In this document: piece by piece, positions 54,306 through 64,000 of the stretch
Numbering within the stretch: the first letter of the stretch is position 1
Layout of the letters: every line of letters begins with the position of its first letter
Source: Tautonia plasticadhaerens
Lineage (GTDB): Bacteria > Planctomycetota > Planctomycetia > Isosphaerales > Isosphaeraceae
DNA length: 64,000 nucleotides
Reading direction: 5' to 3'
Assembly (NCBI RefSeq): GCF_007752535.1
Contig: NZ_CP036428.1
Span: forward strand, 1-64,000
Program-made: the position numbers and the translations under genes
The notes under the pieces: model-generated
Databases searched by the model: none
Told to the model about the DNA's origin: nothing
What the model saw: only the letters and a program-made list of their open reading frames with translations

Positions 54306-56108
54306 CTAACGAAACCGCGGCCCATCGTAGTCACCGGAATGAATCCGATGGTGGCAATGCGTGCAGACAGGAATCGCCTTCCGTCGCCGGGCTGACATGA
54401 TCCGTTCCGCTTCCGACGCCCGTCGCCGCCCGGGTCGGTCGAGATCCGCCAGCTTGCGGATGTGGTGCATGACGACTTGGCCGTCACGGCCACATAGCTC
54501 GCATCTGGCAGACATCAGCCTCTGGACGGCCTCGGAACGGTCGGTCGCGTAGCGATGCCAGGACGCGGCGAGGTCGACATCCTCCAGTCCGTCTCGCCCC
54601 CAGGGCCTCCTGACCAGCGGGAACCCGCCGAACGTGGCAACCAGCGGCGTCCGACCCGGACGCTCGACCACCGCCCTCAGCACGTCTCGGCCATCCTCGG
54701 GGACCCGGTAGCGCCGGTAGACCCCCCTGACGCTGATCCGATGTTTATGGGCAAGTGTCTTGGTCAGTGAGGTCTCGAGGACCCACTTGACCATGTGCAT
54801 CCGCCTCTTCTGGCCGGCGTTGGTCGCCAGGCAGTAGAAGTTGTAGAGCCCGGCGAGGACGCCCTGATACCGTCGGATGATGGTATAGTCCGTCTCCTCC
54901 AGGATCTCGGCCCGATGCCGGACCTTACCTCCCCTGCTGTAACGCTCGCGGATCGTCGCGACCGCGCTCCGGGGCATCAGCAGGGCGATGGCACCGTTCG
55001 TGGTCCGCTTCCCGTCGGTGAGGCGGTCGTGCGACCGCGACACCTTGATCTCGTAGCCCAGGAACGAGGCCTTCTCATCCACGGCGTGGGTGATGAGCGT
55101 CTTCTCCAGCGACAGCTCCAGCCTGAGTTCGTCCCTCAGGAAGTCGCCGATCCGCTGGCGGATCTGCTCCGCCTCGGCCTTGGGCCCGATGAACCCGAGC
55201 AGGAAGTCGTCGGCGTAGCGCACATACTTCAGGCGGCGGAAGTCGGGGTCGAAGTAATCGACGCTCGGGAGGCGTCGGAGTTCCTTCCCCAGGCGTTCGG
55301 CCCCCTCGCGGTCGCCGAGTCGCCTGAGGTAGGCCATCCGGCACCTCGTCCGGACGTACCGCTCGTCCCGCTTCCGGACCTCCCCCCGTGTGTACGCCGG
55401 GATCAAAACATCTTCAACGAACCGGTCCAGCTCGTTCAGGTAGATGTTGGCCATCAGCGGGCTGAGGATGCCCCCCTGCGGCGTGCCGCCGAGGGTCTCG
55501 ACCCGCTTCCAGTCCTCCAGGTAACCCGCCCGAAGCAGGCCCTCGATCAGGGCGATGACCCGGCCGTCTTGGACGTCCCTCTTGAGGATGCCCAGCAGGA
55601 TCGAGTGGTCGATGCTGTCGAAGCACCCCTTGATGTCGCCCTCGATGAACCAGGTCGTCCCCCGCCACGACGCCTGGACCTGTCTGAGCGCCGTGTGGCA
55701 GCCCCGGCCGGGCCGGAAGCCGTGGGATCGATCCGAGAATCGGGGTTCGTAGTAGGCCTCCAGCAGCGCCCGCAGGACCTCCTGCACGAGCTTGTCGCCC
55801 CATGTCGGGATGCCCAGCGGACGGCGACTGCCGTCGGCCTTGGGGATGTACCGTCGCCTGACCGGCCGCCACTCCCATCGCTCCTGCCGGAGCAGGTCGA
55901 TGATCGCGGTGATCGTGTCCAGCGACGTCCCGTCGACCGTCTCCCCCGTGACTCCCCGCGTCATTGCCGCGGCGTTGCGGTAGATCTTGTTATAAGCGTC
56001 GAGGCACAAATCGGGGTTGAAGAGGTGGCGGTAGACACGCTCCAGGGGCAGCCCGCGCTGCCCACGGCTCCGATGGATGTCCAGGATGGCCCTGGCGTCT
56101 CGCATCAC
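54306..56108 (-). CDS. ltrA: group II intron reverse transcriptase/maturase with HNH endonuclease
   Basis: 600-residue intron-encoded protein needed for splicing and retrohoming. RT blocks: 'IPKADGSRRPLGIPTWGDKL' (about 88-107), 'FIEGDIKGCFDSIDH', 'GTPQGGILSPLMANIYLNEL' (about 208-227) and 'YVRYADDFLLGF' with the catalytic YADD at 298-301. The maturase X region includes 'YQGVLAGLYNFYCLATNAGQ'. The C-terminal 70 residues form an HNH nuclease with paired 'CELC' and 'CTHCHHRIH' metal ligands and 'HHIRKL'. All key residues are present, so the intron could be mobile. Confidence 0.95.
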   Translation of the reverse strand: MMRDARAILDIHRSRGQRGLPLERVYRHLFNPDLCLDAYNKIYRNAAAMTRGVTGETVDGTSLDTITAIIDLLRQERWEWRPVRRRYIPKADGSRRPLGIPTWGDKLVQEVLRALLEAYYEPRFSDRSHGFRPGRGCHTALRQVQASWRGTTWFIEGDIKGCFDSIDHSILLGILKRDVQDGRVIALIEGLLRAGYLEDWKRVETLGGTPQGGILSPLMANIYLNELDRFVEDVLIPAYTRGEVRKRDERYVRTRCRMAYLRRLGDREGAERLGKELRRLPSVDYFDPDFRRLKYVRYADDFLLGFIGPKAEAEQIRQRIGDFLRDELRLELSLEKTLITHAVDEKASFLGYEIKVSRSHDRLTDGKRTTNGAIALLMPRSAVATIRERYSRGGKVRHRAEILEETDYTIIRRYQGVLAGLYNFYCLATNAGQKRRMHMVKWVLETSLTKTLAHKHRISVRGVYRRYRVPEDGRDVLRAVVERPGRTPLVATFGGFPLVRRPWGRDGLEDVDLAASWHRYATDRSEAVQRLMSARCELCGRDGQVVMHHIRKLADLDRPGRRRASEAERIMSARRRKAIPVCTHCHHRIHSGDYDGPRFR

Positions 56109-57494: not shown

Positions 57495-57621
57495 GTCGGT
57501 GACCTCCGGATGGCCCCAGTTGAACCCGTCGTCGGGGTCAGGATCAAGCCGGTCATGGCCGCGGCCGTGGGAGCCCGCCCTATTGGGCTGCCTCCGCGAC
57601 GCGGGCGATGCCGATTCGGAT

Positions 57622-57754
57622 CTACTCGCGGCGAGTAACCCCGGCCTTTGAGCATCTCCACCGCCGCCCGACGAGCGGCCTTACTCGCGGCGAGTAACCC
57701 CGGCCCACTCGCCCGACCGCCGGCCCCGGCGGCGGGGTTACTCGCCGCGAGTAA
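57622..57754. repeat. three 17-bp palindromes upstream of parA (candidate parS)
   Basis: The palindrome TTACTCGC-N-GCGAGTAA occurs at 57622-57638 (first base C), 57681-57697 and 57738-57754, spaced 59 and 57 bp apart, the third in the opposite orientation at its central base. The last ends 71 bp before the parA ATG. Repeated palindromes directly beside parAB are typical ParB-binding centromeres and also let ParB or ParA regulate the operon. Assignment is by position and symmetry. Confidence 0.7.
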
Positions 57755-57825
57755 GGCCAGGTTCAACCCGGGCGAGTCCAGTTGCCGATCCTAGAGCCAG
57801 GACACCAACCCGGAGGGCCCCGGCC

Positions 57826-58671
57826 ATGCCGATCATCGCCATGACGAACCAGAAGGGGGGAGTAGGTAAAACCACTTCCACCTTGAACTTGGGCGCGGCG
57901 TTCGCCCGCCTCGGGCGGCGGACGCTGATCATCGACGACGACCCCCAGTCGAGCCTGACCCAGGGGCTGCTGACGCCCGACGCGACCTTCGTCATGCCGC
58001 CCGAGCGGACGATCTACGCCCTCTTCGCCGGCCTCGACGCCGGCCCCTCGGAGCTGGTCGTCGAGGGGGTCTTCCCCGGCCTCGACCTCCTCCCCGGCTC
58101 GCCCCGGGCCGGCAGCTTCAACCGGCCCGAACCGCACACGGTCGACCCCGACCACGCCGCCCTCTTCGCCGAGGGCTTGGATCGGATCACGGCCGGCTAC
58201 GACGTTGTCCTGATCGACACCGCCCCCAGCCTTCAGTTCAACACCTGGGTCGCCCTGCTGGCGGCCGACGCGGTGCTCGTCCCGGCCCAGGCGGAGGCCT
58301 ACGGCAACCAGGGCATCGCCATCGTCTTCGACTGGCTCCACCTTGTCGGCCACGTCCGCGGCCGGGCGCTGCCGATCGCCGGCCTTCTGGTCAACCAGCA
58401 CAAGAGCCGCCGGGGGCTCCAGCAGGCCGTCGTCGACGCGCTGCGCGAGCACTTCCCCGAGACCCTCTCCACCGCGATCCCGGACACGACCGACATCCCC
58501 GAGGCGATCAACCTCGGCAAGCCGGTCCAGGCCCACAAGCCCCGGGGGACGGCGGCGAAGGCCTACGACGCGGTGGCCCGAGAGATCGGGGCCCGGTTGG
58601 CCGCCCTCGGGCTGATGGCCGGAGACGGCAAAGACCGAGGCGAGGCCGAGGACGCACGGGAGGCTGCCTGA
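57826..58671 (+). CDS. parA: ParA-family partition ATPase
   Basis: Moves plasmid copies apart by ATP-driven patterning on the nucleoid. It has the deviant Walker A 'NQKGGVGKTTSTLNLG' (Lys10 and Lys15), 'LIIDDDPQSSLTQGL' (A' box), Walker B 'DVVLIDTAPSLQ' and 'GLLVNQHKSRRGL'. With 281 residues and no N-terminal DNA-binding extension it is a type Ib/chromosomal-like ParA. ParB starts on the last base of its stop codon (TGATG). Confidence 0.95.
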   Translation: MPIIAMTNQKGGVGKTTSTLNLGAAFARLGRRTLIIDDDPQSSLTQGLLTPDATFVMPPERTIYALFAGLDAGPSELVVEGVFPGLDLLPGSPRAGSFNRPEPHTVDPDHAALFAEGLDRITAGYDVVLIDTAPSLQFNTWVALLAADAVLVPAQAEAYGNQGIAIVFDWLHLVGHVRGRALPIAGLLVNQHKSRRGLQQAVVDALREHFPETLSTAIPDTTDIPEAINLGKPVQAHKPRGTAAKAYDAVAREIGARLAALGLMAGDGKDRGEAEDAREAA

Positions 58672-59729
58672 TGAGCCGGGACGACGACAAGAAGCGGGCC
58701 GGCGTGCTGTCCAACCTCGGGATCGGCCGGGCCCCGGCCATCCCGGCCGGCATGGCGCCGCTGCCCGACGCGGCGCCGCACGACCGGCTGGCGGAGCGGG
58801 GCGCCTTCCTGCGGCGGATCCCCGTCGAGCAGATCGAGCCGGACCCGGATCAGCCCCGGAAGCGCTTCGACGAGGCGGCCATCGAGGAGATGGCCGAGTC
58901 GCTCAAGGTCCGGGGCCAGCTCCAGGCCGTCGCCGTTTACCGCGATGAGGGTAGGGGGGCTTACCTCCTCGTCTTCGGCGAACGCCGCTGGCGCGGGGCG
59001 AAGCGGGCCGGCCTGACGCACCTGGACTGCAAGGTCCTGCCGGCCCGGCCGAGCGAGCCCGAGCTGCGGACGATCCAGCTCGTGGAGAACATCCAGCGGG
59101 CCGACCTGAAGCCGTGCGAGCGGGCCGCCGCCTTCAAGGCCATCATGGACGCCCACGACTGGTCCGCGAACCGGCTGGCCCAGGAGCTGGGCGTGCCCCA
59201 GCAGAGCGTCTCCAGCGCCCTGTCGTTGCTGAAGCTCGCTCCCGAGCTGCGAGAGCGGATCGACGCCGGGAGCCTCGCCCCGACGATCGGCCACGAGCTG
59301 GCCCGGCTCGACGACGAGGCGGCCCGTGCCGCCTTGCTGACCCGGATCGAGGCCGACGGCCTGAAGCGCGACGAGGTCGCCGCCGCGGTCAAGGCGAGCA
59401 ACTCGTCGGCCGGAAAGAGCAGGGGGGATACTTCGGGGAGGGCGAAGGGTGGGCACAAGGGGAAGTCGAGTCGGGGGGCCGCCCGGAAGGTGACCCGGAG
59501 GGTGCTGAAGCTGGCCGGCTACAAGGTCACGATCGAGCGGGCCAAAGGGCTCGATGACGACTACTGCCAGGTGATCGCCGCGGCTCTGCTGGCCGGGGCC
59601 GATCCGGATGTCGAAAGGGAATCGACGCCCGGTCATGGAGGGCCGATGGCCGGATCGCCCCCGCTCGACCCTGGCCCCGTCGTCTCTGGCGCCGATGACG
59701 AGGAGCAGGGCAGGGAGGTCGCTGCCTGA
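58671..59729 (+). CDS. parB: ParB/Spo0J-family centromere-binding protein
   Basis: 352 residues. The N-terminal CTPase/nuclease-like domain has 'IPVEQIEPDPDQPRKRFDEA', 'GERRWRGAKRAGL' (GERR/GERRW box) and 'QLVENIQRADLKPCERAAAF' (ENIQR box). The helix-turn-helix is 'NRLAQELGVPQQSVSSALSL'. The C-terminal third has a basic Ser/Gly/Lys-rich linker (residues about 243-270) and a dimerisation region. One-base overlap with parA shows a single operon. It presumably binds the palindromes at 57622-57754. Confidence 0.95.
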   Translation: MSRDDDKKRAGVLSNLGIGRAPAIPAGMAPLPDAAPHDRLAERGAFLRRIPVEQIEPDPDQPRKRFDEAAIEEMAESLKVRGQLQAVAVYRDEGRGAYLLVFGERRWRGAKRAGLTHLDCKVLPARPSEPELRTIQLVENIQRADLKPCERAAAFKAIMDAHDWSANRLAQELGVPQQSVSSALSLLKLAPELRERIDAGSLAPTIGHELARLDDEAARAALLTRIEADGLKRDEVAAAVKASNSSAGKSRGDTSGRAKGGHKGKSSRGAARKVTRRVLKLAGYKVTIERAKGLDDDYCQVIAAALLAGADPDVERESTPGHGGPMAGSPPLDPGPVVSGADDEEQGREVAA

Positions 59730-59812
59730 CCCGAGTCAGGGGACCCACGCCGTCGCCAAACCTGTTGTGGGGCCAATCCGGAGCCTCCGCCCCGGATCCG
59801 GGTCGGTTCCCA

Positions 59813-60268
59813 TCAGTCGCCCAGCTCCTGGCGCACCTGCTCCCATACTCCAGCCGCCCCGGCCGCGAACCCCGCGACGAAGGAAATTCTATTCAACAGC
59901 GGACGGGCCACGGCGGTCGGCATCCCCAGGCGCCAGGCCCAGAATCGCCCCGCACGGCCCGGCTCGATTGCCGTCCGGCTGACCTGCCGGATCAGCCGCC
60001 CGGCCAGCGTCGCCCCCTGCGTCATCTCCACCTCGGCGATCTCCGACCGACGGAACAGCCCGTCCGGCCGATCGCACCGCTCGCCCAGCCGACGAAGCTC
60101 CTCATAGCTCGCCTCCTCGATTGCCCAACGCCGCCCCAGCTCCCGGCCCCAGCGGTTGGCGGCAACGTCCCGCGTCGCCTTCTCCGCCGGGTCCTCCCAT
60201 GCGTTTGCCCCGGCCTCCCGGGACGCCGCCAGCCGCTCGATCAACCGCCGACGCGCCTCGTCGTCCAT
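59813..60268 (-). CDS. unrecognised small protein, paralogue 1 of a tandem family
   Basis: 151 residues, no known domain recognised. It starts MDDEARRRLIERLAA and has 'WAIEEASYEELRRLGERCDR' in the middle and 'RISFVAGFAAGAAGVWEQVR' plus LGD at the end. The same pattern (start DDE-A-R-RL, middle W-A-x-x-x-A-S-x-x-E-L, end F-x-x-A-F-x-x-A-A-x-x-W-D/E) recurs in the next two genes on the same strand, so three paralogues lie in a row convergent with parB. ATG 60268 was chosen as it aligns with the paralogue starts. Soluble, mostly helical; function unknown. Confidence 0.65.
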   Translation of the reverse strand: MDDEARRRLIERLAASREAGANAWEDPAEKATRDVAANRWGRELGRRWAIEEASYEELRRLGERCDRPDGLFRRSEIAEVEMTQGATLAGRLIRQVSRTAIEPGRAGRFWAWRLGMPTAVARPLLNRISFVAGFAAGAAGVWEQVRQELGD

Positions 60269-60389
60269 CCCTGCTGTCCCCCGTCGATCCCCCTGCGGAC
60301 AGGGCGCACCGGCCGTCGGGATCGACGGGTCGGGACGCCGGCGGTGGGGCGCGGCGGGGGCCGCGCGTGCGAGGCACGATGGGCGGCGC

Positions 60390-60816
60390 TCAATCGCGGT
60401 GGTCGCCCAGCAGCGGCTCGACCTCATCCCAGACCCGGCAGGCGGCCTCGGCGAACGCATCGACGAAGTCGGCCGAGTCGCAGAGCCGCCGGGCCGTGTC
60501 GAGGTCGTGGGTCAGGGCGGCCCAGAAGGCGAAGGCGTGGTCCCCCGCGAGCGTGCCGGGTCGCCCTCGACGGCGCGGACCACCCGGGGGCTGAGCAGCC
60601 CCCAGGGCCGACGCCACTCGCGGGCCAGTTGGCGTAGCTCCTTGTAGGAGGCCTGATTGCTGGCCCAGTGCCGGCCCAGGTCCGCGCCGTAGCGGGCCTC
60701 GGCCGCACGGCGTTCGGCCTGCTTCGGGTCCTGCTGGGGGTCCGCCGGCGGGTCGGGTCGGGTCGCCTTCAGCCGGGCGGCCACCCGGGCCTTGGCCTCG
60801 TCGTCCAGGATCGGCA
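60390..60816 (-). pseudogene. unrecognised small protein, paralogue 2, frameshifted
   Basis: From ATG 60816 (with GAGGAG upstream): MPILDDEAKARVAARLKA, then 'ADLGRHWASNQASYKELRQL' and 'LLSPRVVRAVEGDPA'; the frame is then lost near 60553-60560. The adjacent frame continues 'LAGDHAFAFWAALTHDLDTA' and 'FVDAFAEAACRVWDEVEPLL' plus GD to the stop at 60390. A single-base deletion in cggcacgctcg restores one protein of about 141 residues that aligns end to end with its neighbours. Real mutation and sequencing error cannot be told apart here. Confidence 0.65.
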
Positions 60817-60888
60817 TTGTGGATCCTCCTCGGAGTCGTCGGTCGTCGGTCGGCGGCGGGGCGCGGCCGGTGGCCGCGCGGGCGGGGC

Positions 60889-61431
60889 TCACCGGGCGGG
60901 GTCGCGCCAGGGCGGGGCGTGCTCGGGGCGGCCGCCCAGCAGGGGGGCGTCCTGGTCCCAGAGCTGGGCGGCGACGTTGCAAAACGCGGCGATGAAGCTG
61001 AAGTCGTCGCAGGCCCGCCGGGCCGCGTCGGCGTCGCCGACCAGGCCGGACCAGAAGCCGAGGGCCTGCTCCTCGGTCAGCTCCCGGTCGCTGATCGAGC
61101 GGATGAGATGCGTGCCGATCGTCCGGGCCGGCTCCCGGACGAGGAAGTCGGCCAGGCCGTGCGAGAGGGGGTGGGAGAGCCGCCCCCAGTGCAGGCCGAT
61201 CCGGGCCAGCTCGTCCCGGCTGGCGACCTCGGTCGCCCAGCGGAAGGCGACCGCCTCGGCGCCGCGGATCAAGGCCCGGCGGCGTTCGTCCTGCCGCCGC
61301 CGCTCCTCTCGTCGCTCCGCGGTGCGGGCCTCGTCCGCCGCCTTGAGCCGCCCGGCCAGGCGGGCCCGGCCGTCGTCGTCCAGGGTGAGCCGCTTGAGGT
61401 GGAGTCCCTCGGGGGTCGGGGGAGTGCTCAT
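60889..61431 (-). CDS. unrecognised small protein, paralogue 3 of a tandem family
   Basis: 180 residues, intact, with an Arg/Glu-rich helix (residues about 35-55). It shares with its neighbours 'LDDDGRARLAGRLKAADEAR' near the start, 'FRWATEVASRDELARIGLHW', then 'EEQALGFWSGLVGDADAARR' and 'FSFIAAFCNVAAQLWDQDAP' with LLGG. Probably the founder of the array, being first in the transcription order. Start ATG 61431. No signal peptide, metal site or known fold was recognised. Confidence 0.7.
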   Translation of the reverse strand: MSTPPTPEGLHLKRLTLDDDGRARLAGRLKAADEARTAERREERRRQDERRRALIRGAEAVAFRWATEVASRDELARIGLHWGRLSHPLSHGLADFLVREPARTIGTHLIRSISDRELTEEQALGFWSGLVGDADAARRACDDFSFIAAFCNVAAQLWDQDAPLLGGRPEHAPPWRDPAR

Positions 61432-61530
61432 ACCGGTGGTCTCTCGGCCGGGTCACATCATGCACCGCCGCTGATAGTGGCATTTTGTTCATTTCACAGC
61501 AAGCGGGATCCCGTCGCGACTGTGTCCGCT

Positions 61531-61565
61531 GTTGACAGATATCAACGCGCATTCAGTTATATAAG
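61531..61565 (+). promoter_or_regulatory. candidate promoter/operator between paralogue 3 and SRAP
   Basis: In the only A/T-rich stretch of the area: an inverted repeat GTTGA-CAGATA-TCAAC at 61531-61546 containing TTGACA, followed after 20 bp by TATATA (61558-61563). The spacing is longer than the usual 17. Because a SRAP gene and a translesion polymerase follow, a damage-inducible repressor site is tempting, but the sequence was not matched to any known LexA box. Confidence 0.3.
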
Positions 61566-61664
61566 GCGATTGACGCCCGGCCGCACGACCTCATGAGCGG
61601 GGGGACGTCCCGTCGGGTGCGGCGGGGCGGATGACCCGCCGGATCGGACCCGGGAGCAATGCCG

Positions 61665-62338
61665 ATGTGTGGAAGATACGCCCTGCACGCCCACCGCCGG
61701 GCCATCGCCGAGGCCTTCGATCTCGACCCCGACGAGGTCCCCGAGCTGCCCCGGCGCTACAACGTCGCCCCCACCCAGGACGTCCTCGCCGTCCGCTCCG
61801 GATCCGAGGGGGTCGGCGGCGGCTGGCGACGCTCCGCTGGGGGCTGATCCCCTCCTGGGCGGACGACCCCTCGATCGGCAATCGGATGATCAACGCCCGG
61901 GCCGAGACCGTCGCCGGCAAGCCCGCCTTCCGCTCGGCCTTCAAGCACCGCCGGTGCCTCGTGCCCGCCTCGGGGTTCTTCGAGTGGCGGGCCGAGGGCA
62001 GGACCAAGACCCCCCATTACTTCCGCCGGGAGGACGACGAGCCGTTCGCCTTCGCCGGCTTGTGGGAACGCTGGTCGAAGGGCCCGGCGCCGGTCGAGAG
62101 CGTCGCCATCATCACCACCGAGCCCAACGACCTGGTCGCCCCGGTCCACGACCGGATGCCGGCGATCCTCCGCCCCGAGGACTACGCCCAGAGGCTCGAC
62201 CCGGAGGAGCAGGCGTCGGACCTGCACGCGCTCCTGGCCCCATTCCCGGCCGGGCTGATGGCGGCCCATCCGGTCGGCACGCTCGTCGGCAGCCCGAGGG
62301 TCGACCGGCCCGAGTGCATCGAGCCGGTCGCCTCGTGA
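61665..62338 (+). pseudogene. SRAP-family (YedK/HMCES-like) protein, frameshifted
   Basis: SRAP proteins form a thiazolidine crosslink with abasic sites in single-stranded DNA through Cys2. ATG 61665 gives MCGRYALHAHRRAI with Cys at position 2, and 'RRYNVAPTQDVLAVR'. Around 61815-61822 the frame changes; the other frame continues 'LATLRWGLIPSWADDPSIGN', 'NARAET' (Asn), 'LVPASGFFEWRAEG' (Glu) and 'VAPVHDRMPAIL' (His), so all active-site residues exist. One missing base in a GGC-repeat run accounts for the break. If real, the gene is inactive. ATG 61659 would bury the Cys and was rejected. Confidence 0.85.
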
Positions 62339-62371
62339 GCCGGCCGCGCCGCCTCCCGGCCCCGTCCGGGC

Positions 62372-62842
62372 TCAGATCCGCTGGTCGATCAGCACCGGCA
62401 TCCGGTCCGAGCCGGTCATGATCCTGTAGTAGTGGCTGGCCGGCTCGCACAGCATGTAGGCGACCGCCCAGCCCCGCTCGTCCGGCACCACCAGCCCCCG
62501 GAACCCCGTCTCGATCAGATACCACACCCCCCGACGCTCCAGGCCGAACGACGCCGGGATCTCCACCGGCACCGACTCGATCCCCCGCCAGCCCCCCTCC
62601 TCGATCGTCCGCAGCCACGTCCAGCCCGTCCGGGGCAGGGATCGGCTCTGGCCCCGCCCGTTCCCCCAGCGGACGACCTGGAGCCGGCCGTCCCGCCAGA
62701 TCGGCAGCGCCGGCCACCGCTCCCGGTACAGGAAGCGGTACTCGTCCCGCTCGCCGCGGAGGTAGCGGCGATGGGCCATGCCGGGCCGCCCGATCAATTC
62801 CGTGGGCAACTCGCTCCCCGCGACGGCGATCCCCTGGCACAC
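62372..62842 (-). CDS. hypothetical protein with Cys2, possibly a divergent SRAP relative
   Basis: 156 residues, function unknown. It starts M-C-Q-G, so Met removal would expose Cys as in SRAP. Further on it has 'LQVVRWGNGRGQSRSLPR' (compare the RWG of SRAP), and its end 'AVAYMLCEPASHYYRIM' then 'TGSDRMPVLIDQRI' parallels the SRAP ending '...TEPNDLVAPVHDRMPAIL', although the catalytic His is Ser here and no NAR motif is seen. The resemblance is suggestive only. It is convergent with the canonical SRAP gene (33-bp gap) and divergent from the polymerase gene. Confidence 0.5.
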   Translation of the reverse strand: MCQGIAVAGSELPTELIGRPGMAHRRYLRGERDEYRFLYRERWPALPIWRDGRLQVVRWGNGRGQSRSLPRTGWTWLRTIEEGGWRGIESVPVEIPASFGLERRGVWYLIETGFRGLVVPDERGWAVAYMLCEPASHYYRIMTGSDRMPVLIDQRI

Positions 62843-62866
62843 GGCCCGACGGTCCGACTCCCCGGT

Positions 62867-62894
62867 TTGACTGATCCTATGTGCAGAGTATGCT
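62867..62894 (+). promoter_or_regulatory. candidate promoter of the Y-family polymerase gene
   Basis: TTGACT (62867-62872) and TATGCT (62889-62894) are separated by 16 bp. The initiation point would fall at or next to ATG 62902, implying a leaderless transcript, consistent with the lack of a ribosome-binding site. Confidence 0.45.
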
Positions 62895-62901
62895 TCCGTC
62901 C

Positions 62902-64000
62902 ATGAAGCGCCAAGGGCCGATCGGGCACGTCGACGCCGATTGTTATTACGTCGCCGCCGAGCGGGTGCGCCACGCGCACCTCGCCGGCTTGCCCGTCGGC
63001 GTGCTCGGCAACCAGGGCGCCTGCGTCATCGCCAAGAGCTACGAGATGAAGGCCGCCGGCGTCGGCACCGGCATGCCCATCTGGGACGCCATGGCCCTCT
63101 GCCCCGAAGGGGTCTACGTCAAGCGCGACTTCCGCTGGTACGAGGTCCTCTCCCGGCTGATGCTGGAGACGATGCGGGAGCTGTCCCCGAAGGTTGAATA
63201 CTATAGCATAGATGAATTCTACTTCGAGGTCGTCTCGCCCCGGGGGGGCGACGACCAGGAGGCCGCCCGGCTGGTCCGCGACCGGATCATGGAGCGGGTG
63301 CGGGTGCCGGTCACCGTCGGCATCGCCCGGACCCGCACCCTCGCCAAGCTCATCTCCGACGCCGCCAAGCCGTTCGGCGCCCGCGCCGTCCTCGACCCGG
63401 CCGCCGAGCACGCCCTGCTGGCCGCCCGCCCGGTCACCGACGTCACCGGCATCGCCGGCCGCCGGGAACGCCTGCTGCTCCCCCGGGGCATCCGCACCTG
63501 CCTCGACCTCGCACGGGCCGACCGCCGGATCATCCGGCGGGTCCTGACCGCCAGCGGCGAGGCCCTCTGGTGGGAACTCAACGGCGACCCCGTGATCCCG
63601 ATCAACGCCCAGCGGACCCCCCACAAGGTTCTCTCCCGCGGCGGCAGCTTCGGCGCGCCGACCGGCCGGCCGGAGGTCCTCTGGGCGTGGCTGGTCCGCA
63701 ACCTGGAGCGGCTCGTCGAGGAGCTGGCCTTCCATCGCGTCCTGGCCGGTCGGGTCGCCTTCTGGGTCGGCTATCGCGACGGGCACGCCAGCGAGGGGCG
63801 GGCGACGCCCGGGGTCCCGACCGACCGCTTCGACGTCCTGCTCGACGCGCTGCGGCCCTGCCTGCGGCGGGCCTGGGTGCCGGGGGCGATGGCGGCGCGG
63901 ATGCACCTCTTCGCCGAGGACCTGCGGCCCCACCTCCCCCGGCATCTCGGCCTCTTCGACGGCACGGGGCCGGGCGACGCGGCGACGGCGGTGAAGCGGG
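62902..64000 (+). CDS. Y-family DNA polymerase (DinB/ImpB-like), partial at window end
   Basis: Translesion polymerase. Motif I 'GHVDADCYYVAAERVR' has the metal-binding Asp-x-Asp-type residues, and 'YYSIDEFYFEVV' holds the SxDE catalytic pair. The palm, fingers and thumb ('VGIARTRTLAKLISDAAK', then 'VTDVTGIAGRRERLLLPRGI' for the helix-hairpin-helix) are in order, and the little-finger domain follows. 366 codons are visible and no stop is reached by 64000, so the C-terminus lies beyond. ATG 62902 begins MKRQGPIGHVD; ATG 62890 is also in frame. With the SRAP genes it forms a damage-tolerance module. Confidence 0.9.
   Translation, partial: MKRQGPIGHVDADCYYVAAERVRHAHLAGLPVGVLGNQGACVIAKSYEMKAAGVGTGMPIWDAMALCPEGVYVKRDFRWYEVLSRLMLETMRELSPKVEYYSIDEFYFEVVSPRGGDDQEAARLVRDRIMERVRVPVTVGIARTRTLAKLISDAAKPFGARAVLDPAAEHALLAARPVTDVTGIAGRRERLLLPRGIRTCLDLARADRRIIRRVLTASGEALWWELNGDPVIPINAQRTPHKVLSRGGSFGAPTGRPEVLWAWLVRNLERLVEELAFHRVLAGRVAFWVGYRDGHASEGRATPGVPTDRFDVLLDALRPCLRRAWVPGAMAARMHLFAEDLRPHLPRHLGLFDGTGPGDAATAVKR

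Follow-up and report, generated by a model that had tools for sequence, protein, structure and literature searches.

Tandem paralogues beside parAB on a Tautonia plasticadhaerens plasmid and their putative planctomycete core-domain family

Introduction

What kind of protein is encoded by three similar genes lying in tandem beside the partition genes of a planctomycete plasmid, and what might it do there? The window analysed here (the whole stretch of 64,000 nt) is the first 64 kb of a contig of 140,537 bp (C3), in a genome of 9,395,224 bp and 6 contigs. The genome report of Tautonia plasticadhaerens ElP describes a chromosome accompanied by five plasmids (0.28, 0.14, 0.12, 0.09 and 0.09 Mb; PMC7716859), and the window most likely belongs to the 0.14 Mb plasmid. 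An original prediction, made from the sequence of the window, described the three genes (A, B and C) as tandem paralogues of an unrecognised family and saw in their amplification beside partition and repair genes a sign of a stability, anti-defence or DNA-processing function.

The array and its surroundings

The main features, in order along the plasmid, are as follows.

Beyond parA, left of the array: DUF3006/helix-hairpin-helix gene
57826..58671, plus strand: parA (Pfam AAA_31, 1.2e-33)
58671..59729, plus strand: parB (Pfam ParB_N, 1.4e-18; HTH_ParB, 5.1e-14), convergent with the array
59813..60268, minus strand: gene C, 151 aa, intact, within a longer open frame (start as in the original prediction); core-only family member
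60390..60551, minus strand: C-terminal homologous part of gene B, in another frame than the N-terminal part
60560..60817, minus strand: N-terminal homologous part of gene B, its frame continuing to a stop at 60512
60889..61431, minus strand: gene A, 180 aa, intact ORF; core-only family member with an all-helical model
61432..61658: divergent intergenic region between gene A (minus strand) and the SRAP frame (plus strand), read from the sequence
61659..62338, plus strand: frameshifted gene of the SRAP family (PF02586 positions 1-48 and 50-213 fall in different frames)
From 62875, right of the SRAP gene: Y-family polymerase frame (PF00817)
59975..63116: block of 3.14 kb, 100% identical on C3 (140.5 kb) and a second plasmid, C4 (124.3 kb), with its left end within gene C

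The predicted location beside parAB and repair genes is borne out by the matches to ParA, ParB, SRAP and the Y-family polymerase. Pfam also recognised a DUF3006/helix-hairpin-helix gene and a piece with a lactamase fold among the neighbours, alongside ORFs that gave no match. The Pfam scan of surrounding window ORFs recognised no toxin gene adjoining the array, and the ten window ORFs scanned around it included no recognisable integrase.

The split SRAP gene is divergent from gene A at the 5′ side of the array, and the copy on C4 is identical. The region between the two (61432..61658) may possibly be the promoter region of the array; no sigma-70-like site was found within 59700-61900. It contains a 16-nt near-palindrome (61531-61546) for which a genome-wide search gave exact matches only here and in the C4 copy, the one other site being chromosomal, with 2 mismatches. 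A 156-aa ORF beginning MCQGIAVAG lies between the SRAP and Y-family polymerase genes (62372-62842, minus strand; no Pfam match at 0.01), and a gene for a group II intron-type reverse transcriptase/maturase (Pfam RVT_1, Intron_maturas2 and HNH) occupies 54306-56108.

Directly 5′ of parA the near-palindrome TTACTCGCSGCGAGTAA occurs three times (57622-57638, 57681-57697 and 57738-57754; one copy mismatched), against 0.01 copies expected, making these repeats candidate parS sites. A search allowing 3 mismatches did not detect it in stretches of 14-20 kb of each of the other four plasmids. One of these, C6, carries its own near-palindromic repeat 5′ of parA, CGATCACCGGGTGATCG, twice and once as a variant (L036:3507-3694), and the differing repeats suggest plasmid-specific centromeres. 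Beyond parB, apparent short translated repeats were noted by eye on plasmids C2 ('MGSLRRG', L035:9148-10029) and C6 ('QMGSLG', L036:5653-6387).

Paralogy of the genes and the state of gene B

With gene A as sole query, its own genome returned the C-terminal part of B (E 1.3e-10), gene C (3.9e-9) and the N-terminal part of B (4.9e-6). Local alignment scores were 138 for A with C (shuffle mean 38.9, z 14.7), 98 and 124 for A with the N- and C-terminal parts of B (z 11.0 and 19.5), and 146 and 68 for C with the same two parts (z 19.5 and 9.8); in each of the five pairs, none of 1000 shuffles attained the score. A, B and C form one clade with an ultrafast bootstrap of 99, and A groups with B, also at 99, indicating that the array arose through duplication in this lineage.

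The frame of gene B starts at 60817 and ends at the stop at 60512, while the C-terminal homology lies in a different frame, from about 60551 to 60390. Homology to A and C breaks near 60555, and an alignment reading shows that about 14 codons common to A and C are absent between the two parts. In the assembly, therefore, gene B is broken, and it is broken in the identical way on C4; a frameshift and the loss of some 14 codons appear to have split it.

The tandem paralogy and amplification named in the original prediction are thus real: the similarity exceeds that of shuffled sequences in all five pairs, and the clade is well supported. The central motif W-A-x-x-x-A-S-x-x-E-L was read exactly, in all three genes. 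The motif at the end of the proteins is present, but is better written F-x-x-[AG]-F-x-x-x-A-x-x-x-W-[DE] than as first given. Lengths of 180 and 151 residues stand for A and C, but the continuous middle gene of 141 aa does not exist, since B is split, and three functional paralogues are for the same reason not supported.

A block shared by two plasmids

Plasmid C4 (124,260 bp) carries the order helix-hairpin-helix gene, parA, parB, transposase-like ORFs (so named by reading only), then C, B, A and the SRAP gene. Throughout the aligned stretch 59809-63116, every difference between C3 and C4 falls in 59812-59974, the last third of gene C. Identity of the remaining block on two plasmids indicates that it moved recently, and a recent recombination probably copied these 3.14 kb, most of the array included, onto a second plasmid. 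On C3 beyond 63116, no C4 match was present among the 8 matches listed (40 of 1459 candidates scored). A Tn3-type element, identified by reading, abuts the right end of the block on C4 (L010:7987 onward) and cuts off the Y-family polymerase frame, which continues on C3.

Relatives in other planctomycetes

Gene A alone found nothing certain outside its own genome. A profile of A, B and C with one weak additional row (a gene of genome G040) gave six weak matches outside the genus among 45 genomes of the same taxonomic family, four of them at E 6e-5 to 5.5e-4 (L047, L048, L049 and L051). In two of these four, an N-terminal stretch that reads as a ribbon-helix-helix (RHH) head precedes the core seen in A, B and C. 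Further weak matches were L050 and L052 in the same 45 genomes, and L058 and L059 in a search of the phylum.

The relationship was examined with profiles that keep the two sides apart. An hhalign comparison of A, B and C only with six outside members only gave a probability of 95.9 (E 5.3e-9). A profile of 20 outside members matched C at 5.9e-16, A at 7e-8, and the N- and C-terminal parts of B at 9.7e-7 and 2.2e-5. The best of 1200 shuffles (0.019) ranked below all four, and all four outranked the other ORFs of the window (553 scanned). The core pattern of this profile, which excludes the window (RL..S / GxxxGxxWAxxxAxxxEL / FW / FVxGFxEGALExW), was found in A, B and C, and on these comparisons the three almost certainly belong to a planctomycete core family.

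The family was matched in at least 7 of 392 genomes of the phylum, that of the window included, in at least 5 of the 45 genomes of the taxonomic family, and in at least 19 of 297 genomes of the class. These are lower bounds, since 10, up to 92 and 13 candidates per genome were scored, respectively. Four of the five genomes in the second search had supplied query rows (G033 was new), as had 8 of the 19 in the third, the window's own among them, leaving 11 without rows in the query. The distribution of the family thus appears sparse and patchy.

A plasmid collection, which may leave out the records of this genome itself, held nothing matching 57500-62500 at the DNA level, nor A or the L051 protein at the protein level, so that the homologues on other plasmids looked for after the original prediction were not found there. 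The L051 protein had no match in phages, and a pattern scan of IMG/VR viral contigs found no relatives. Contigs of GTDB gave no match with A alone and seven loci with outside members as queries, several of these being places already found.

The gene from G040 (L012:8285-8659), which A alone matched at E 3e-4, was examined as a possible relict of the family and rejected: it is outside the best 16 rows of the 20-member profile search and gave no match in the profile search of the 45 genomes. It scored strongly in two profile searches whose alignments contain it as a row, so that these scores are built in, and it is excluded from the member counts.

The conserved core and its optional head

The core, of about 120 residues, opens with a long helix that bears RLxxS...GxxxGxxWAxxxAxxxEL and continues as a small helical bundle ending FVxGFxEGALExWxxV. 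The AlphaFold2 model of A (pLDDT 84.6, pTM 0.72) contains helices only, one of 51 residues followed by six of 9 to 18 residues, and the model of the L072 protein has a similar helix order after a poorly modelled head. In an alignment of 11 rows, W158 of A is invariant, and W65, E74, L75, W127, F150 and A154 are nearly so. Hydrophobic and small residues, with the E of the EL pair, occupy the conserved positions, among which no catalytic set is apparent by reading. A fold search of the PDB with the model of A gave nothing below E 3.0, which does not show the fold to be new, and the best VIA match (Z 3.4 over 67 residues, rmsd 3.4) was not convincing. Against viral structures, the model of A had no match below E 2.4 and the best for L072 was E 0.65.

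No entry of Pfam, NCBIfam, PHROGs, PADLOC or the PDB was matched at a curated cut-off or with a convincing E-value. The best PHROGs matches (A 0.25, C 0.029) and PRK12472 (E 0.65) were treated as chance, and the sequence profile reached E 0.12 at best in the PDB. Within these libraries, the view that no described family can be recognised here is therefore upheld. The part of the literature that was searched, PMC7716859 and PMC5352709 included, likewise yielded no description of the family. The family to which A, B and C belong appears to be a core domain for which no earlier description was found, sometimes joined to an RHH-like head.

Such a head was read in 9 of 22 outside members (L071, which is L051; L072, which is L049; L108, L109, L110, L111, L113, L116 and the second gene of L069). 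Its pattern is R-x-T-I-[ST]-x-P-x-[DE]-L-K-x-R-M ... N-W-S-x-[VI]-A-x-x-A-F-E-x-K-L. The head profile matched best in the PDB a CopG-family RHH protein (9kkd, E 0.0092), and the L051/L071 protein matched the NCBIfam VapB antitoxin model at 5.5e-6, below the curated cut-off. Pfam RHH_3 was found in one of the nine heads (best E 0.0087); the L109 protein scored 17.7 bits, where the cut-off is 21.6. In the L072 model the head is not predicted as a ribbon, confidence there being low. A, C and the pieces of B gave no Pfam or NCBIfam RHH match up to E 1; the head region is mostly gap in their alignment rows, and the model of A starts with the long helix. A search of the rest of this genome revealed no member with a head. 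At L069 a headless and a headed member lie in tandem, 83 nt apart.

Neighbourhoods of the relatives

An integrase was found in 6 of 21 family loci (L072, L073, L109, L110, L111 and L112) and in none of 20 control loci (one-sided Fisher test, approximately 0.012), with a profile built in this analysis from four of the six positive loci. The controls were arbitrary loci of 12.4 kb from five of the same genomes; the family loci span 4.8 to 12.5 kb. The family gene immediately precedes the integrase, in the same orientation, in L111, L112 and L072. It converges with the integrase in L110 and is separated from it by one ORF in L109, and in L073 integrase-like frames lie about 2 kb from the family gene on the opposite strand. 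The integrases of L109, L110, L111 and L112 are backed by Pfam and PHROGs. That of L072 was called by the profile of this analysis and a match to Pfam Phage_integrase below its cut-off, and L073 had no Pfam match at 0.001.

Tape-measure matches were seen in L115 (4.8e-15) and L111 (9.7e-7), and weakly in L112 (1.7e-4); L072 has a terminase match. In L109 a large ORF was considered as a further tape-measure gene, but matched nothing. A DUF5131 gene adjoins the family gene in three different genomes (L117, L118 and L120, the last by similarity only), a recurrent pairing that may mark a functional link. PADLOC identified a gene for an Hma defence helicase about 0.7 kb from the family gene of L076, and similarity points to another about 3 kb from that of L075.

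Counting integrase, tail or terminase, DUF5131 and Hma-helicase genes together, 12 of the 21 loci have a mobile or defence-linked look, so that about half of the relatives lie in a mobile context. The other nine (L071, L077, L107, L108, L113, L114, L116, L119 and L121) showed no such genes in the scans, and several of them look chromosomal by reading.

Possible functions of the array

The presence of an RHH-like head in about two fifths of the outside members read suggests a DNA-binding regulator in which the core most likely forms the half for dimerisation or partner binding; a core that is constant where the head is variable points likewise to selection on the core, probably in this capacity. 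The explanation favoured here, plausible rather than probable, is that the core is a regulatory or adaptor domain of mobile elements that has become headless and amplified on this plasmid. The role of the family in mobile elements is supported indirectly, by gene neighbourhoods. Members with a head would bind DNA in the vicinity of mobile-element genes. The genes A, B and C would be tandem copies of the core domain, made within this lineage, of which B is a decaying copy, and the headless A and C would act by protein contacts, as partner or antagonist of another regulator. The array might in this way tune the element's own genes (for partition, or the facing SRAP and polymerase genes) without itself binding DNA or catalysing a reaction. 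Dimerisation, regulation and target are all inferred, and ParA/ParB or the facing SRAP region is only suggested as the target, by position. Counting against a regulator are the missing RHH in A, B and C, the lack of a headed member in this genome, RHH matches that miss curated cut-offs, and the absence of a sigma-70-like promoter site. The specific stability, anti-defence or DNA-processing activity of the original prediction is not supported in the form in which it was put, and its versions are weighed below among the alternatives.

It is unlikely that A and C are accessories of partition or plasmid stability that bind ParA or ParB and modulate segregation, which would account for an array beside parAB. 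The order from the DUF3006/helix-hairpin-helix gene through parA, parB and the array to SRAP is common to both plasmids (the transposase-like ORFs of C4 excepted) despite the divergence of ParA (49% identity) and ParB (46%), and the parS-like repeats are directly 5′ of parA. One recombination together with shared ancestry of gene C may, however, explain the common order, and the array is absent from C2 and C6, which share the cell with C3 and encode related ParAB. As for the outside loci, L115 contains a ParA-like ORF, but no other locus clustered with the ParA of the window.

An antitoxin-like or anti-defence factor, which would neutralise a toxin or a defence protein belonging to the host or to a rival element, is quite unlikely. 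Such a role would suit the RHH-like heads, which recall those of antitoxins (the sub-threshold VapB match being an example), the two members near an Hma helicase, and the acidity of 16 of 17 outside members (pI 4.3-5.8; L113, 7.9). The pI, however, is 7.0 for A and 9.3 for C, no PADLOC model matched A, C or the L071 and L075 proteins at E 0.01, and a toxin gene was recognised neither beside the array nor as a recurrent toxin-like neighbour when 24 neighbourhoods were compared.

That the array consists of non-functional remnants, the decaying cargo of a recombined repair block, is distinctly improbable, although B and the adjoining SRAP gene are both frameshifted. Since these breaks are common to both plasmids, they either predate the copying or represent a shared sequencing error, and the splitting of ParA and ParB on C6 as well makes the latter a real possibility. 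The two versions of gene C differ in 31 codons, and in 18 of these the residue differs too, which speaks against strong constraint on the C-terminal third; 24 of the 42 changes nevertheless sit at third codon positions, and A and C retain full-length frames and the positions most conserved in the family.

Very unlikely is an accessory of integration or recombination directionality, in which headed members would bind attachment sites beside an integrase and the plasmid copies would be headless cargo from such an element. In its favour are the three genes directly upstream of an integrase, of which those of L111 and L072 are headed and that of L112 is not. Against it, the profile detects no integrase in 15 of the 21 family loci, and none was recognised among the ten ORFs scanned around the array.

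Within the preferred reading of the core as a regulatory or adaptor domain, a more specific and decidedly speculative version takes it as a new helical dimerisation module from which planctomycete mobile elements build mixed regulators, headed and headless copies forming hetero-oligomers and the headless copies being amplified on plasmids as antagonists. If this were true, headless copies would retune the integrase or partition promoter of a rival element, and the headed and headless pair of L069 and the headless triple described here would be two states of one circuit.

Through these results, what looked like an oddity of one plasmid becomes a definable family of proteins that may carry a probable DNA-binding head and tend to accompany mobile elements. 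Many genes are still unnamed in this phylum, and 45% of the proteins of Tautonia plasticadhaerens ElP are hypothetical according to its genome report (PMC7716859). If the regulatory reading is right, the family would give access to the self-regulation of plasmids and integrative elements in planctomycetes, which would be useful for developing genetic tools in these bacteria.

Comparison with known systems

The nearest known kind of protein is the RHH regulators and antitoxins (CopG/Arc/VapB-type), whose DNA-binding domain the heads of the headed members may represent. A, B and C fail the defining feature of this kind, as they are headless. The conserved helical core matches no described family searched, and no toxin partner was recognised.

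A second comparison is with partition accessories of the ParG and omega types, small plasmid proteins encoded near parA that have RHH folds and regulate partition genes. The array proteins are likewise small plasmid proteins encoded near parA. They differ in being without an RHH and in sitting 3′ of parB, on the opposite strand and with a start region of their own.

A faint match to a described domain, PF12553 (DUF3742), was given by residues 83-126 of C at E 0.74, with 10.3 bits where the cut-off is 27.2. It was rejected as a chance match, being given by C only and neither by A or the pieces of B nor by five outside proteins.
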